Source of the DNA: Bombella sp. ESL0385
GTDB lineage: Bacteria > Pseudomonadota > Alphaproteobacteria > Acetobacterales > Acetobacteraceae
DNA length: 64,000 nucleotides
Direction of reading: 5' to 3'
Assembly (NCBI RefSeq): GCF_009725755.1
Contig: NZ_WNIJ01000001.1
Span: 744,001 to 808,000, forward strand
Shown here: piece by piece, positions 19,451 through 25,078 of the stretch
Numbering within the stretch: the stretch's first letter is position 1
How the letters are laid out: every line of letters begins with the position of its first letter
Position numbers and translations under genes: made by a program
The notes under the pieces: model-generated
Told to the model about the DNA's origin: nothing
Seen by the model: only the letters and a program-made list of their open reading frames with translations
The model's database searches: none

Positions 19451-19505
19451 AGTCCTGCCTCTTAGACCAAGGCGATGCAAGGCAGATACGCAATTTTTTT
19501 TACAT

Positions 19506-19632
19506 TATACTGCTCCGTGACCTTGTCATCTAAGGGTGATGAGAGGCAAGAAGGAGGCGAACTGACTGGTGTCAGTAGCGATTATGCTCCCCGCTTTAAT
19601 TGGGGGCAGACTGTTGAGGCTGCGTTTTTTTC
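19506..19632 (+). promoter_or_regulatory. Structured leader of pmtA with possible attenuator
   Basis: Downstream of a TATACT (19506-19511, possible -10; no convincing -35) the leader contains successive hairpins. These are CTTG-TCATC-loop-GATGA-GAGG-CAAG (19522-19550), ACTGAC-TGGT-GTCAGT (19561-19576), and TGCTCCC/GGGGGCA (19585-19608). The GCA of the last arm is also needed by an alternative hairpin GCAGAC/GGCTGC (19606-19623), which is followed directly by GTTTTTTT, ending two bases before the pmtA ATG. Mutually exclusive stems with a terminal U-run are the usual design of attenuators and riboswitches. No known class is recognised. Confidence 0.4.
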
Positions 19633-20292
19633 ATGGTGTCTTCCCCTAACCCTCGTTCTTCTCTTGATGCAGATAGTGTGCGTGAGGCGTATCGCCGTTG
19701 GGCACGGATGTATGACAAAGTCTTTGGTGGTGTCTCTGCCTTTGGGCGGCGGCGGGCTGTAGCCGCGGTGAATGCCCTATCGGGAGAGCGCGTGCTGGAG
19801 GTTGGTGTTGGTACCGGGCTTGCTTTGCCCTCTTATCGGGCTGAAAAACGCATTACAGGAATCGATCTTTCAGAAGATATGCTGGCCTTAGCCAAAGAGC
19901 GCGTAAAGCGCGATGGCCTGCGTAATATTGATGAACTTTTGGTGATGGATGCAGAGCAAACAAGCTTTGCTGATAATAGTTTTGACATCGCCGTAGGGAT
20001 GTTTGTGGCTTCTGTGGTGCCGCATCCTGACCGCCTGTTGGCCGAGCTAAAACGGGTGGTAAAGCCGGGGGGGCATATCCTTTTTGTCAACCACTTCCTA
20101 GCCCGGGGGGGGATTCGTTTGCATGTGGAGCGTGTGATGGCACGGGCCTCGCGTGCGCTAGGTTGGCATCCTGATTTTGCGATTGAATCACTCCTGCCCC
20201 CGGAGGATTTAGCGCGTGCGACGATTACACCTGTTCCTCCAGCGGGGTTGTTTACCCTCGTGACATTGCCGCCAGAGCCGTCTAAAGAATAA
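19633..20292 (+). CDS. pmtA: Phosphatidylethanolamine N-methyltransferase (PmtA-type)
   Basis: A 219-residue class I SAM-dependent methyltransferase. It opens with VREAYRRWARMYDKVFGGV and FGRRRAVAAVNAL, then motif I VLEVGVGTGLALPSY (about 54-68), TGIDLSEDMLALAKERV, and AELKRVVKPGGHILFVNHF. This pattern matches the Rhodobacter-type PmtA that makes phosphatidylcholine by three methylations of phosphatidylethanolamine at the membrane face. There is no membrane segment, as expected for this soluble form. A generic methyltransferase remains possible, but the lead region is quite specific. The start lies right after a T7 run in a structured leader. Confidence 0.82.
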   Translation: MVSSPNPRSSLDADSVREAYRRWARMYDKVFGGVSAFGRRRAVAAVNALSGERVLEVGVGTGLALPSYRAEKRITGIDLSEDMLALAKERVKRDGLRNIDELLVMDAEQTSFADNSFDIAVGMFVASVVPHPDRLLAELKRVVKPGGHILFVNHFLARGGIRLHVERVMARASRALGWHPDFAIESLLPPEDLARATITPVPPAGLFTLVTLPPEPSKE

Positions 20293-20326
20293 GGTCTTCC
20301 ATTCGTTTAAGGATGGTTAGATTGGA

Positions 20327-21586
20327 TTGAGACAAGAACAAACTGGCATCAAAGACGTGACTGCAAGGCCCTTATTTCATAAAACATCCTCCGTTCCAGC
20401 GTATCAGGGGGGCGGGGCGTTCTTCCTATTGGCATTTTTTGCGGGCATGTTAGGGGGAATGTTAGGGCTGCCTTTCCTCCATGTGCAACCCTCTGCTGGT
20501 GTTGTGGTGGCTCATGCGTTGTTGATGACGCTTTATGTCGTCTGCCCTGTGATGTTGGGGGGCATGGCGCAATGGTTTCTCCCCAAGCTGTTAAAGGGTG
20601 AGGGGATGGCCCTCCCCACTGCCTCTCATATTGGGTTTGTGCTGTTAGCTGTCGGTGTGTTTTTGCTGCCTGTTATGCCCTATGGGGGGTTAGCCCTTTG
20701 GGCCTTGGGGATGTTGGCTTTGGCCGTCAATGTTCTTGCCACAATATTGGAGATGCGCTCTATCACCTTTCGGGCGTTTCCTCCCCTCATTTGGGCTTTT
20801 GTGGGGAGTGCTTTGTCCGTTCTCATCGTAGCACCGGTTCTTTTGGCTTTCCTCGTGCGTAGTGGCTTTGCGGGTGGTGGGGCAACAGCTTTGCTGGCAG
20901 TCCTGCATGGTGGGGTCGAGATGAGCTTGCTGAGCGTTCCTTCTTTAGGGATTATTGTTGCAGCCCTGCTCCCTGCCAAAGCGGAACGTGGCATGGTCGT
21001 ACGATGCGCCCCTTATGCTTTTGGGGTGATGGGGCTTGTGCCTGTTTTATGCTGGGCAGACCATCTATTTGGGGGGCTATCCTCCACGGCGTATAGGGTC
21101 GGGCTTGTGGTGGGGCTCGCGATGCCCTGCTTGGCTCTTTTAGGAGCGTTTCTAGTTGATATGTGGCGCGCACGTTTGCCATCCGGCCCTGTGGCAAGCT
21201 GGGCCTCTGGTGGTTTGGTGTTGCTTTTAGCGGGCTGGATTTTGATGGTGTTGGGGGATGTGCAGTCACTCCCCTTTGGGCTTTCAGGCGCGGCGAGCCA
21301 TCAATTAGTTATGTTTGGTAGCTTATTGGCATTAGGCGCGGCATTTTATGCGTGGTGCTCTACGGGGTTGGCTCAGCATAATAAAGGGCTGGCCTTTTTT
21401 GGCTCCCTTCATGCTTTTGTGACATTTATAGGGGCGGTCTGCTCGGTCATGCCGCAGCTTGCTCTCCCCGCGGTTATCTTGATGACGGCGAGTCTGGTCA
21501 TGTTCGGCTTGGTCGCAGGGCGGCTTTGGTACGCTCTGTTAGTGGCGCGTGCCAACATTAGAGCCGAGCTTGAGTGTAAAGGGTAA
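20327..21586 (+). CDS. Degenerate heme-copper oxidase subunit I-like membrane protein
   Basis: A 419-residue polytopic membrane protein with about 12 hydrophobic segments. HALLMTLYVVCPVMLGGMAQ (63-82) aligns with helix II of cytochrome oxidase subunit I, VEMSLLSVPSLGII with helix VI (HPEVY region), CWADHLF (242-248) with WAHHMF, and SHQLVMF with the AHFHYV region of helix X. By eye both low-spin heme ligands are kept (His63, His325). The CuB and high-spin ligands are altered: the HPEVY His and Tyr are lost, the first His of HH is Asp245, and the a3-heme His is Ala323. It is also shorter than the usual 530 or so residues. The start shown is an alternative codon (TTG, in GATTGAGACAAG); it is uncertain. 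ctaB follows immediately. Confidence 0.65.
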   Translation: MRQEQTGIKDVTARPLFHKTSSVPAYQGGGAFFLLAFFAGMLGGMLGLPFLHVQPSAGVVVAHALLMTLYVVCPVMLGGMAQWFLPKLLKGEGMALPTASHIGFVLLAVGVFLLPVMPYGGLALWALGMLALAVNVLATILEMRSITFRAFPPLIWAFVGSALSVLIVAPVLLAFLVRSGFAGGGATALLAVLHGGVEMSLLSVPSLGIIVAALLPAKAERGMVVRCAPYAFGVMGLVPVLCWADHLFGGLSSTAYRVGLVVGLAMPCLALLGAFLVDMWRARLPSGPVASWASGGLVLLLAGWILMVLGDVQSLPFGLSGAASHQLVMFGSLLALGAAFYAWCSTGLAQHNKGLAFFGSLHAFVTFIGAVCSVMPQLALPAVILMTASLVMFGLVAGRLWYALLVARANIRAELECKG

Positions 21587-21593
21587 TCGCATC

Positions 21594-22559
21594 ATGCAGG
21601 CATCATCCACACCATCCTCATCGCTACTAACGCGGTTTATGGCTATGTTGCGTGTAGAGGGGCAAAATGGTGATGCCGCCTTGCAAGATTGGATCGCCTT
21701 GCTCAAACCGCGGGTGATTTCGCTGGTTGTATTTACGGGGCTTGCAGGCATGGCTGTGGCCCCTAAATGGCCGTCTATCCCCGTTGGTCTTGTTATCATT
21801 GCTTGTATTTGCATCGGGGCTGGGGCGGCTGGGGCCATCAATATGTGGTATGACCGCGATATTGATGCGATTATGAAGCGTACGCAGGTTCGCCCTGTGC
21901 CAGGCGGGCGTGTAGAGCCGACGAGCGCGCTGGTTTATGCCGTGATTCTCTCCGTGGCGTCGGTTGTGGTGCTGTGGTTGGCGACAAACCTGCTCGCAGC
22001 GGGGATTTTGGCGTTCTCCATCTTCTTTTACGGCGTGATTTATACGATGTGGCTTAAGCGTAGCACGCCGCAGAATATTGTGATTGGTGGGGCGGCGGGG
22101 GCTTTCCCCCCCATGATAGGCTGGGCTGCGAGCATGGGCTCGCTAGATGTGTTGCCTGTAGTGATGTTCGCGATTGTCTTTTTATGGACGCCGCCGCATT
22201 TTTGGTCTCTCTCCCTTTATGCGTGTAAGGATTATGAGAGTGCGGGCATCCCCATGTTGCCAGTCGTAAAAGGTGCACGCCATACGCGCTGGCAGATTGT
22301 CATTTATACTGTGATTTTAAGCCTTGTCTCGCTCGTGCCGAGTGTGGTGGGTCAATGTGGCTGGTTCTACACAGTTTGCACCAGCCTGTTAGACCTCGGC
22401 TTTATCTATTACGGGCTGCGCGTTCTCTGTGATAAGCAAGATGACAAGGGTAACAGCCTGACAAAGGATAAACCAGCTCGCTACGCTTTTCGCTACTCGC
22501 TGGCATATCTCTTTTTTCTCTTTTGTGGTCTATTGATTGATAGGGTTCCTCTGATATGA
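21594..22559 (+). CDS. ctaB: Protoheme IX farnesyltransferase (heme O synthase)
   Basis: A UbiA-family membrane enzyme that farnesylates heme B to heme O. Landmarks are LKPRVISLVVFTGLAGM, the polyprenyl-diphosphate site NMWYDRDIDAIMKRTQVRPV, and DYESAGIPMLPVVKG. Seven to nine membrane segments are visible. The frame extends to 21549 inside the previous gene, but the ATG at 21594 has AAAGGG upstream and gives 321 residues, close to the family length. Acetic acid bacteria generally use a bo3 quinol oxidase, so heme O is the probable end use; no oxidase structural genes other than the degenerate subunit lie here. The stop overlaps the next ATG. Confidence 0.95.
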   Translation: MQASSTPSSSLLTRFMAMLRVEGQNGDAALQDWIALLKPRVISLVVFTGLAGMAVAPKWPSIPVGLVIIACICIGAGAAGAINMWYDRDIDAIMKRTQVRPVPGGRVEPTSALVYAVILSVASVVVLWLATNLLAAGILAFSIFFYGVIYTMWLKRSTPQNIVIGGAAGAFPPMIGWAASMGSLDVLPVVMFAIVFLWTPPHFWSLSLYACKDYESAGIPMLPVVKGARHTRWQIVIYTVILSLVSLVPSVVGQCGWFYTVCTSLLDLGFIYYGLRVLCDKQDDKGNSLTKDKPARYAFRYSLAYLFFLFCGLLIDRVPLI

Positions 22560-22666
22560 GCGATCTTAATACGACCCCCCGTCGGCAAGGCCGCCTTTTT
22601 GGCATTGTTGTTGGCTTGTCCTTCTTTGCTCTTTCCCTTTTTGTGGCAGCTCTTTATCGGCTGTAA
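22556..22666 (+). CDS. 36-residue membrane peptide, CoxF-like
   Basis: A 36-residue reading frame whose ATG overlaps the ctaB stop (ATGA): MSDLNTTPRRQGRLFGIVVG followed by a hydrophobic stretch and the end ALYRL. It has a short basic N-terminus and one membrane span. In many alphaproteobacteria the ctaB gene is followed by a small one-span protein (CoxF) ahead of ctaG and coxC, and this peptide has that position and shape. ctaG and coxC are absent; a terminator follows 23 bp later. Coding status rests on position, overlap and topology only. Confidence 0.6.
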   Translation: MSDLNTTPRRQGRLFGIVVGLSFFALSLFVAALYRL

Positions 22667-22689
22667 GGTGCCCTCAATAAGGGCCTATA

Positions 22690-22735
22690 AAAACCCCACA
22701 TCCCACCAGCACAGGCAGGATGCGGGGTTTTCTTT
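22690..22735. terminator. Bidirectional intrinsic terminator after the ctaB operon
   Basis: Arms AAAACCCCACATCC (22690-22703) and GGATGCGGGGTTTT (22718-22731) pair with one mismatch around a 14-nt loop. The plus strand continues TTTTCTTT and the minus strand TTTTTATA, so it can serve both ctaB and the convergent Tim44 gene. Confidence 0.85.
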
Positions 22736-22758
22736 ACCTATGCTCAGCAGGTGTAAGA

Positions 22759-23724
22759 TTACCCTGCTTGTTGGATGGCAGAGAGAATCCAATTACCGCG
22801 TCCATCGGCCCGGAGGAAGGTCCAAAGCTCTGTAATAGTTTGTGGCTCGGTTTTGCTGCCATCAAGCACTGTGCCCATACTATCGGTCGTGACATCGACA
22901 GCAGAATATTGCAGAGCAACGCTAGCATAAGTGATGTTGCCTTCTCGCCATGCCTCGGCGAGGTCCCCACGAATGAAACGTACCTGAGAGACAATATTGC
23001 GCGCCCCACGGCTTGTAAGCTCAGAGAGTTGGTTATTGAAGTAACTCACCATCTCCGGCGTGGCCATACGTTGCAGGGAGGCCATGTCCTGCGCGCTCCA
23101 TGCCGCTTGGACATTGAGCAAGAGTTGTTGGAAGCTCTGATAATCCTCTGGTGTTAAGGTAACATCTTGTGCTGGTGTCGCCTGAGGTTGGCTGGGGAAG
23201 GGAGATGCCCCACCATTAGCGGGCGTAAACCCCGTTGTAGGGCCATTATTCGTGCTTGAGGATCGCCGCCATAATTTGATGATGAAGTTTATCAGCAACG
23301 CAACGAGCAGTGCTTGGAAGATAAAGCCAAAGAAGGAACCGCCACCACTAAAGCCCCCAAAGAAGCCATGCCCGCTAAGCATTCCAAAAAGGCCAGCCCC
23401 TAAGAAGCCACCGGCCAAGCTGGTCAGGAAGGGATGACGTGTCGCAAAGGGAGGGCGCATCCCACCACCAAAAGCAGGACGGTTAAAGCCACTGCCCATG
23501 GAAGGCTCTGCCGTGCCGTAAGAGGGGGTGCGTGGGGTCATGCTACGGTCCATAGGCCGTGTCCAGCTAGGGGTAACGCTGGTGCGGGGCGGTGCGCTCC
23601 ATGTACGGGAGCCACGGCTGCCAAGGGAGGAGCCCATCCCAGCGCGGGCCTCAGCGGCAGGGGCGAGGGCAAAGAGCGGCAGGCACAGCACCGCTGTGGC
23701 AAGAGGGATAAGACGAATACGCAT
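22759..23724 (-). CDS. Tim44-like domain protein, membrane-bound
   Basis: A signal or anchor sequence (MRIRLIPLATAVLCLPLFAL) is followed by a Ser/Arg/Pro-rich linker, a Gly/Phe-rich section (GFFGGFSGGGSFFGF) and a membrane segment (FQALLVALLINFIIKLW). A C-terminal Tim44-like domain covers about 200-321 (DYQSFQQLLLNVQAAWSAQD, ATPEMVSYFNNQLSEL, ELWTFLRADGRGNWILSAIQ). Bacterial proteins of this build are abundant but unassigned; the fold is shared with the mitochondrial import factor. A TTG at 23745 opens the frame, but the ATG at 23724 sits 7 bp after the pmbA stop and begins the signal sequence (321 residues). It is likely co-transcribed with pmbA. Confidence 0.8.
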   Translation of the reverse strand: MRIRLIPLATAVLCLPLFALAPAAEARAGMGSSLGSRGSRTWSAPPRTSVTPSWTRPMDRSMTPRTPSYGTAEPSMGSGFNRPAFGGGMRPPFATRHPFLTSLAGGFLGAGLFGMLSGHGFFGGFSGGGSFFGFIFQALLVALLINFIIKLWRRSSSTNNGPTTGFTPANGGASPFPSQPQATPAQDVTLTPEDYQSFQQLLLNVQAAWSAQDMASLQRMATPEMVSYFNNQLSELTSRGARNIVSQVRFIRGDLAEAWREGNITYASVALQYSAVDVTTDSMGTVLDGSKTEPQTITELWTFLRADGRGNWILSAIQQAG

Positions 23725-23731
23725 AATCGGG

Positions 23732-25078
23732 TTAGTCTCCAGCAAGACTCATATGGTCGATACGAATGGTCGGGGCGTGATAACCAGCCATGAGGTCGAG
23801 GTCATTGGCCGGGATAAGGCGGGCAAACATCTCAAGCAGATTGCCAGCAATGGTAATGCCAGAGACAGGCTCGGCAATCTCACCATTGCGAATCATAAAG
23901 CCAGAGCCACCACGGCTATAATCCCCAGTGAGCATATTGATGGCATTGCCCATAAGTTCTGTCAGTAACACGCCTTCTTTAATATCAGATTGCAACGCAG
24001 AGGGGGAATGGTCTCCAGGATGGAGATAGAATGTGGAAAGACCCGGCCGTACACTCCCTCCGCTGCGGACAGCCCGCCCATTGCTTGTAGGGAAGCCTAG
24101 CTTACGCGCGCAGCGGCTATCTAGCAACCAGTGGTTGAGTTGGCCATTCTCAACAAGATTTAATGGAAGAGTCGCGCTCCCTTCACCATCAAAGGGGCGA
24201 GACCCCGCAAGGCGAGGGAGGGTTGGGTCATCAGTTAAGGTGATGCCCTTATGAAAAAGGGCCGCTCCGCGCTTATCTTTAAGAAAGGAGGCCTCTTGTA
24301 CAATGGCCGCGCCATTAATAGCTGCGGCGAAATGCGCTAAGAGAGAGGAGGAGACGCGTGGGGCGAATAATACGGGATAAAAGCCCGTTTTAGGCCGGAT
24401 AGGGTTGAGACGAGCCAACGCATGACGGGCTGCTTCATCCCCTAAGTGAGTCGGATTGTGCAAATCGGCCTGATGCACCGCGTTATGGAAGGCATAATCA
24501 CGCTGCATATGCGGACCTGTGCCTGCCACAACGCTGATGCTTCGGCTATGCCCACTGCGTTGATACTGCCCCGCAAAACCTGCGCTTGTGGCAAGGGCAA
24601 TGTCATGCGTGCTGGCACTCGCTGCGGCCCCGCTACTATTTGTGATGCCCTTATGGGCGAGGGCCGTACCTTCCATTTCCTTCGCTGTGGCGAGGAGGGC
24701 GTCTATCTCTGGTGTGGGTGTGGAGTCAAAGAGGTCTAGCTTTGTGATGGCCTCTTGTGGGAGCGGGATGAGCGGATGCTCGGCTAATCCATCCCCTGGG
24801 GAGGGCGGAACGGCTTGAGCCATCGCACAAGCGCGTTCGGCTAGCTGGTCGAGTGCGTGTGTGGTGAGGTCATTGCCTGACACACTGGCAACACGCCCTT
24901 GATGAAAGACACGCAAGCTGAGGGAGAGCCCCTCTGCATGGCGGATGCCCTCCGCCTTGCCTTGCCGAATCATAGCAGAGCGGTTCTGGCTCCGCATAAT
25001 GAGGGCATCAGCATGGTCCGCTCCGTGATGGCGCGCACGTGTGAGAGCATCGTGAAGGGAAGTGAGGAGGTCTGTCAT
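23732..25078 (-). CDS. pmbA: TldD/PmbA family metalloprotease, PmbA-type
   Basis: A 448-residue PmbA-like protein. TldD/TldE (PmbA) pairs form a zinc protease that trims modified peptides and antitoxins; in the pair, the PmbA subunit lacks the metal site. Visible landmarks are the N-terminal ADALIMRSQNRSAMIRQGKAEGIRHAEG, the middle NGQLNHWLLDSRCARKLGFPTSNG, and the C-terminal LLTELMGNAINMLTGDYSRGGSGFMIRNGEI. No HExxxH motif is present, consistent with PmbA. Its start overlaps the stop of the M16 peptidase gene by 4 bp, and a Tim44 gene follows. TldD is not in the window. Confidence 0.9.
   Translation of the reverse strand: MTDLLTSLHDALTRARHHGADHADALIMRSQNRSAMIRQGKAEGIRHAEGLSLSLRVFHQGRVASVSGNDLTTHALDQLAERACAMAQAVPPSPGDGLAEHPLIPLPQEAITKLDLFDSTPTPEIDALLATAKEMEGTALAHKGITNSSGAAASASTHDIALATSAGFAGQYQRSGHSRSISVVAGTGPHMQRDYAFHNAVHQADLHNPTHLGDEAARHALARLNPIRPKTGFYPVLFAPRVSSSLLAHFAAAINGAAIVQEASFLKDKRGAALFHKGITLTDDPTLPRLAGSRPFDGEGSATLPLNLVENGQLNHWLLDSRCARKLGFPTSNGRAVRSGGSVRPGLSTFYLHPGDHSPSALQSDIKEGVLLTELMGNAINMLTGDYSRGGSGFMIRNGEIAEPVSGITIAGNLLEMFARLIPANDLDLMAGYHAPTIRIDHMSLAGD

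Follow-up and report, generated by a model that had tools for sequence, protein, structure and literature searches.

A degenerate oxidase subunit I beside ctaB in Acetobacteraceae selectively retains the low-spin heme histidines

Introduction

In Acetobacter, a 'deranged' COX1-like protein, said to be 'lacking all' metal ligands and located beside ctaB, is described in the accessible part of PMC10715153, which cites Matsutani 2014. An excerpt of PMC5158111 places ctaD (APT_01775) next to ctaB (APT_01774) and reports both genes as conserved in three A. pasteurianus strains, and the available text of PMC5112900 reports no cytochrome c oxidase genes for Bombella intestini.

Here, we analyzed a gene from a stretch of 64,000 nucleotides of Bombella sp. 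ESL0385 (the window), whose genome is 1.9 Mb and whose closest named relatives, judged by this protein, are Bombella saccharophila and 'Parasaccharibacter apium'. The gene has the same position beside ctaB as the 'deranged' COX1-like gene, or partial ctaBD cluster, of Acetobacter, and the homologs that we collected include copies from A. ascendens (L145) and A. aceti (L166). The published trait of degenerate ctaD, a COX1-like gene directly before ctaB in quinol-oxidase genomes, was found here as well. While the existence of the gene was already known, the selective retention of its low-spin ligands, its breadth and the selection acting on it were not found in the literature searched, as far as the available excerpts go.

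Results

Gene layout and start codon

The 419-aa open reading frame at 20327-21586 (+) given by the first-pass annotation exists as listed, but its TTG start at 20327 is doubtful. Translation probably begins at GTG 20357, giving 409 aa, because in the two closest relatives (L003 and L004, 95% identical) the longer reading is interrupted by an in-frame TAA at its fifth codon; agreement with the other Bombella sequences, all but L012, begins at the Val-Thr of this GTG. No clear Shine-Dalgarno sequence was seen by eye before GTG 20357, and a consensus scan of the + strand from 19500 to 22800 returned no promoter-like site. The ATG of ctaB lies 7 bases past the stop of degenerate ctaD. The features of the locus are as follows:

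20357..21586, + strand: degenerate CtaD/COX1, 409 aa from GTG 20357, COX1 fold with the low-spin heme ligands alone; start set by comparison with relatives
20327..20356, + strand: 5' part of the mechanical open reading frame (TTG start), probably untranslated; codon 5 is an in-frame TAA in L003 and L004
20513..20515, + strand: His63 codon (CAT), helix II low-spin heme ligand; His in 104/104 readable homologs, 0 changes on the tree
21299..21301, + strand: His325 codon (CAT), helix X low-spin heme ligand; His in 104/104 readable homologs, 0 changes on the tree
21293..21295, + strand: Ala323 codon, replacing the high-spin heme ligand; His in 2/100 homologs, 18 changes on the tree
21059..21064, + strand: Asp245 and His246 codons, position of the CuB His-His pair; His at 245 in 47/100 and at 246 in 10/100
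21578..21583, + strand: AAAGGG, Shine-Dalgarno-like for ctaB by its sequence, within the last codons of degenerate ctaD
21594..22559, + strand: ctaB, heme O synthase (TIGR01473, E = 1e-98); same-strand neighbor in 104/104 testable loci

The next gene upstream (window 19633-20292, +) encodes a methyltransferase, with phospholipid N-methyltransferase PmtA as its best NCBIfam match at 162 bits, below the cut-off of 390. Convergent with ctaB is a gene for a Tim44-like domain protein (window 22759-23745, −; PF04280), which TimA models match weakly.

Homology to A-type subunit I

Taken alone, the window protein matched no Pfam or NCBIfam model at E ≤ 1; the Pfam COX1 model was matched by 46 of its 59 relatives. 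A single-sequence phmmer search with the window protein reached COX1 chains in the PDB (E = 3e-10). The profile alignment against subunit I that the first-pass annotation had proposed as a check, made here from the 59 relatives, gave E = 4e-73 to COX1 7jro_a, with the low-spin histidines aligned, and E = 6e-32 to E. coli CyoB 1fft. A structure prediction, likewise proposed, returned a COX1 fold: an AlphaFold model of the 409-residue protein, built from the relatives' alignment, had a pLDDT of 91.5 and a pTM of 0.90 and superposed on Rhodobacter COX1 6pw1_C with Z = 32.0 (2.9 Å over 363 residues). By structure comparison only, the fold scores were Z = 26.4 for NOR 4xyd and up to Z = 28.5 for cbb3, against 32.0 for COX1. 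Based on the phmmer search, the profile and the model superposition, homology to A-type subunit I is therefore beyond doubt, and the earlier reading of the gene product as a membrane protein descended from an oxidase subunit I, without the oxygen-reducing residues, appears to be right.

The shape of the model also bears on whether the protein could be a heme sensor, one of the roles named in the first-pass annotation, or a heme store that reports heme supply. A putative single heme site near heme O synthase would suit such a role, but there is no room for a signaling domain, because the model is a helix bundle that aligns to COX1 over residues 15-394 of 409; we consider this explanation very improbable.

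Metal and heme ligands

Both the phmmer and the profile alignments place His63 at the helix II low-spin ligand and His325 at the second histidine of the helix X HFH motif, as had been read by eye from the sequence. The losses claimed at the same time were borne out by the alignments and by checking the codons: the window protein has Ala323 at the high-spin ligand, and both the His and the Tyr of HPEVY are replaced. At the His-His pair the account was incomplete, since Asp245 does stand at the first position, as stated, and the second histidine (His246) is still present. The window protein has His246, as do 10 of 11 Bombella sequences and none of the 89 others (n = 100).

Across the homologs, the two low-spin histidines were each present in all 104 readable sequences. 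Among the first 93 sequences, the helix II histidine was found in 92, the helix X low-spin histidine in 93, the high-spin histidine in 2 and the HPEVY CuB histidine in 0, with the His-His pair present in 45 and 10, and the cross-link tyrosine and the K-channel lysine each in 0. Extension to 100 sequences gave 99 and 99 for the helix II and helix X low-spin histidines, 2 for the high-spin histidine, 0 for the HPEVY histidine, 47 and 10 for the His-His pair and 0 for the tyrosine. The two low-spin misses are explained by a frame shift in L134 and by a contig end in L171; we considered the serine at the helix II site of L134 as a ligand loss and rejected this, since the frame shift upstream explains it. 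Five divergent sequences (L203-L206 and L209) keep both low-spin histidines and have lost the high-spin ligand, the HPEVY ligands and at least one histidine of the pair. Within the Acetobacter genus group, both low-spin ligands were present in 12 of 12 sequences, and so, judged from their sequences, the published statement that all metal ligands are lacking is contradicted for A. ascendens and A. aceti.

Distribution and origin

The search for orthologs with the same ligand loss beside ctaB, the third check that had been proposed, found them across the Acetobacteraceae, with at least 105 degenerate homologs in at least 21 genus groups. These were collected from 100 relatives and then with a profile against 397 genomes of the family, giving 93 sequences, to which follow-up searches of 20 and then 41 further genomes added 7 and 5; genomes with a true-CtaD-like best match may carry another, more divergent copy. 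Degenerate frames measured 404-504 aa, with two others open further upstream, as compared with mostly 530-580 aa for true CtaD. Frames of at least 404 aa were open in 104 of 105 loci, including the frame-shifted L134, and the remaining locus is cut by a contig end. Bearers could be named by exact plasmid match in four cases: Acetobacter ascendens (G217; five records match, of which this one is full-length), A. aceti NBRC 14818 (G414), Komagataeibacter medellinensis NBRC 3288 (G346) and Neokomagataea tanensis (G429). A class-wide search of 289 genomes at E ≤ 1e-67, a threshold too strict to catch copies that have diverged as far as those of g96 or part of g31, gave three matches, all within the family and none outside it. 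A CtaD-like sequence from another family of the class (L022, genome G085) keeps HPEVY and HFH and has Tyr and Gln at the CuB His-His pair; by sequence, it represents another type of partial degradation of subunit I.

In a tree with CtaD, the degenerate rows, those of g96 and g111 included, fall on one side of a branch with support of 100/100 (34 versus 13 rows), and the corresponding branch in the tree holding 58 degenerate rows has an SH-aLRT of 100. This is consistent with a single origin of degenerate ctaD, provided that the tree is rooted on the CtaD side; long branches blur the details. Several separate origins were considered and are unneeded, as even the divergent g96 and g111 rows lie on the same side of the branch. 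In the CtaB tree, the bearers require two changes because G011 falls among them. The copies of g96 and g111 (L203-L206, L209 and L181) are early-branching degenerate copies, with a frame of 526 aa in L206, and may show intermediate steps of the loss.

Conservation and selection

Of 167 columns that are invariant in 14 true CtaD sequences, 5 survive at ≥98% in 98 degenerate sequences, and both histidines are among them (hypergeometric P = 7e-4). On the tree of 58 degenerate rows, which spans 44.5 substitutions per site and on which the median column changes 19 times, 4 of 356 columns are unchanged: H63, W156, W243 and H325. Chance retention of the histidine pair was rejected on both grounds. 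The histidine codons are CAT or CAC in ratios of 61 to 31 and 77 to 16 at the two sites, indicating that the codons turn over and the residue stays.

For degenerate ctaD, dN/dS had a median of 0.159 and a maximum of 0.458, and was below 0.5 in all 215 within-genus pairs, as given by a simple Nei-Gojobori count over non-independent pairs with L134 left out. For the 208 pairs in which both genes were measured, the medians were 0.159 for degenerate ctaD and 0.058 for ctaB; one genus group (g42) had a higher median, 0.30. Such low ratios indicate that, by this sequence measure, degenerate ctaD is under purifying selection.

These results bear on the simplest alternative, that the gene is a decaying, functionless ctaD remnant kept by chance. 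The function of ctaD has reportedly been read by Matsutani in 2014 as gone through accumulated mutations, and the loss of the whole active site, one frame-shifted copy (L134) and fast evolution, with dN/dS nearly three times that of ctaB, would all fit decay. Against this stand the long open frames, the uniformly low dN/dS and two invariant histidines in at least 21 genus groups; a dead gene was rejected on dN/dS and conservation, and we find the remnant reading barely credible. The holding of one heme-binding pair of histidines instead suggests a working heme protein.

Linkage to ctaB and respiratory context

The adjacency to heme O synthase pointed out in the first-pass annotation extends to every testable relative. 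In all 104 of these loci, degenerate ctaD is followed directly by ctaB in the same orientation, and the ctaB domain begins at −38 to +82 bases relative to the degenerate ctaD stop; the 105th locus (L171) is cut off by a contig edge. Since true CtaD also stands ahead of ctaB in five of seven loci, the ctaD-ctaB order was inherited, and the linkage may reflect no more than this inheritance; the notable point is that the order outlived the oxidase.

Among 43 sampled bearers, all have CtaB over the cut-off and all have a CyoB-like subunit I by score and length; CtaA is present in 19 and absent in 24, and the histidine pair stays in both groups. The window genome has one PF00115 match, which is CyoB-like and about 46 kb away, and showed no other CtaD-like PF00115 match and no CtaA match, so that heme A is not expected; as a ligand in this genome it was considered and judged unlikely. 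Across 98 degenerate rows, the arginine taken to contact the heme a formyl is kept in 7%. Its single PF00116 match adjoins cyoB, and no subunit II of the CuA or CyoA type is encoded with degenerate ctaD. Seven bearers (G051, G109, G122, G190, G231, G261 and G427) carry, in addition to CyoB, another PF00115 frame with a high score (544-624 aa), and there the degenerate copy persists beside an apparent further oxidase.

This context can be set against the possibility that the protein is a redox cytochrome, that is, a b-type membrane cytochrome relaying electrons, for example from quinol or cytochrome c to another acceptor. Within a membrane protein of the COX1 type, with the fold taken from the model, a low-spin heme held by two histidines would suit electron transfer. 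However, no separate CuA-type donor was found, the sole PF00116 match of the window genome being the one next to cyoB; the gene linked to it is one for heme synthesis, not for a dehydrogenase, and no quinol-site residues were seen in an inspection by eye only. We regard an electron relay as unlikely.

Genomes without the degenerate copy inform the link to CtaB in two ways. Eight of 65 genomes have no CtaB over the cut-off, and no degenerate copy was found in any of them. Five of these eight, all small (G039, G165, G115, G119 and G257), have no COX2-family subunit, and their sequences suggest that they lost the whole bo3 branch. The joint absence with CtaB thus coincides with the absence of the quinol oxidase in these five, which weighs against a CtaB-specific role. 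The same five genomes are without a CyoB-scoring subunit I, and three of them show just a frame of 785-833 aa with E of about 1e-41. Conversely, CtaB over the cut-off without a degenerate copy was found in seven of 65 genomes: three have an ordinary PF00115-scoring frame near ctaB (G014, G059 and G126), three end at contig edges (G017, G022 and G041), and one (G011) is a clear absence, with no COX1-like frame in 7 kb of sequence surrounding ctaB. G011 has CtaB, which groups with that of the bearers, and two large CyoB-scoring subunits I; CtaB can thus do without degenerate CtaD in that genome, a case that counts against the role favored below and is not accounted for by it.

The low-spin heme pocket

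Outside the histidines, much of the pocket has changed. Arginines R481 and R482, which we take to be the propionate arginines (bovine/Rhodobacter oxidase numbering), are deleted in 93 of 93 degenerate rows. Two further sites were presumed to be low-spin pocket contacts, namely a serine at the farnesyl hydroxyl and the loop with W126. In the 98 rows that remain without L134 and L171, the serine is kept in 7%, and the loop is absent from all 98. W125 is near-invariant in the degenerate set (92/93), and alanine stands there in five of seven true CtaD sequences. Mean pocket retention was 0.35 for the low-spin heme versus 0.16 for the high-spin heme. By sequence comparison, then, the low-spin pocket seems largely altered, which counts against heme binding and is left unexplained by the reading that we favor.

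These losses, together with the constant neighborhood of ctaB, would fit a heme-free structural partner that stabilizes CtaB by contact and uses the histidine pair for packing or hydrogen bonding, and a structural role of this kind, stabilizing CtaB, is suggested in the accessible part of PMC10715153. However, that text describes a protein without all metal ligands, whereas here the low-spin residues and two tryptophans alone are unchanged among 356 columns. We hold a heme-free partner to be distinctly unlikely.

Discussion

Degenerate CtaD is most likely a membrane cytochrome that binds one bis-His heme (b or o) and works with heme O synthase. Our estimate is a probability of roughly 0.85 for a protein under selection that carries one bis-His heme, given the histidine pair, the fold and the selection described above. 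That its role is heme handling linked to CtaB is a tentative proposal, at slightly under even odds. Two descriptions of oxidase assembly favor it. During maturation of subunit I, the low-spin heme forms first, according to an excerpt of PMC9145763, and the multimerization of Cox10, the heme O synthase of yeast, apparently relies on freshly synthesized Cox1 and the early intermediates that it forms, as stated in the available text of PMC7140478; a CtaB-partner role in heme handling is therefore favored.

Under this proposal, an ancestor would have replaced its cytochrome c oxidase with a quinol oxidase of the bo3 type and retained subunit I beside CtaB, the heme O synthase. Subunit I would then have shed the high-spin heme, CuB and the K-channel lysine and retained the helix II and helix X histidine pair, leaving a protein that most likely binds one six-coordinate heme, of type b or o. 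Such a protein could act as a heme-loaded stand-in for the early state of subunit I assembly that has the low-spin heme only, holding heme b or o at CtaB, keeping CtaB active, or both, and heme O would thereby reach the bo3 oxidase. Heme binding, the type of heme, contact with CtaB and the effect on heme O supply are all steps that we infer. A. pasteurianus ctaB expressed in E. coli reportedly made heme O (Matsutani 2014), which indicates that degenerate CtaD is not strictly needed for catalysis. In its most specific form, the proposal is of an assembly intermediate made permanent, in which a low-spin-heme-only subunit I would be a dedicated acceptor of heme O and an activator of heme O synthase, passing heme O to the bo3 quinol oxidase; we judge this version somewhat unlikely. 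If true, it would amount to a heme O chaperone built from an oxidase.

The route by which heme O and heme A pass from the synthases that make them to the oxidases is poorly known, and the degenerate CtaD family may offer a natural separation of the heme-receiving from the catalytic part of an oxidase, carried by easily grown laboratory bacteria. The analysis also corrects a published statement, and a supposedly dead gene becomes a candidate cytochrome of vinegar bacteria.

Compared with A-type CtaD/COX1, the degenerate protein shares the fold, the helix II and helix X low-spin histidines, the tryptophan of WxHH and the ctaD-ctaB gene order. It differs in having no high-spin ligand, HPEVY CuB ligand, cross-link tyrosine, K-channel lysine or propionate arginines, in the partial or whole loss of the His-His pair and in its length (about 410 versus about 540 aa). 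CyoB, the subunit I of bo3 oxidase, belongs to the same superfamily, as reflected in the profile match to 1fft, and its low-spin site binds heme b. Unlike degenerate CtaD, CyoB retains the full active site and measures 660 aa or more, and the window genome has a separate CyoB-like protein. The 'deranged' COX1-like protein of Acetobacter occupies the same position, but in the accessible description it lacks all metal residues, whereas both low-spin ligands are present here. Lastly, degenerate CtaD may resemble the early Cox1 intermediates that aid yeast Cox10 (PMC7140478, in the text available), as a state of subunit I without a finished heme a3-CuB center; those intermediates are transient and mitochondrial, whereas the protein proposed here would be permanent and separate.
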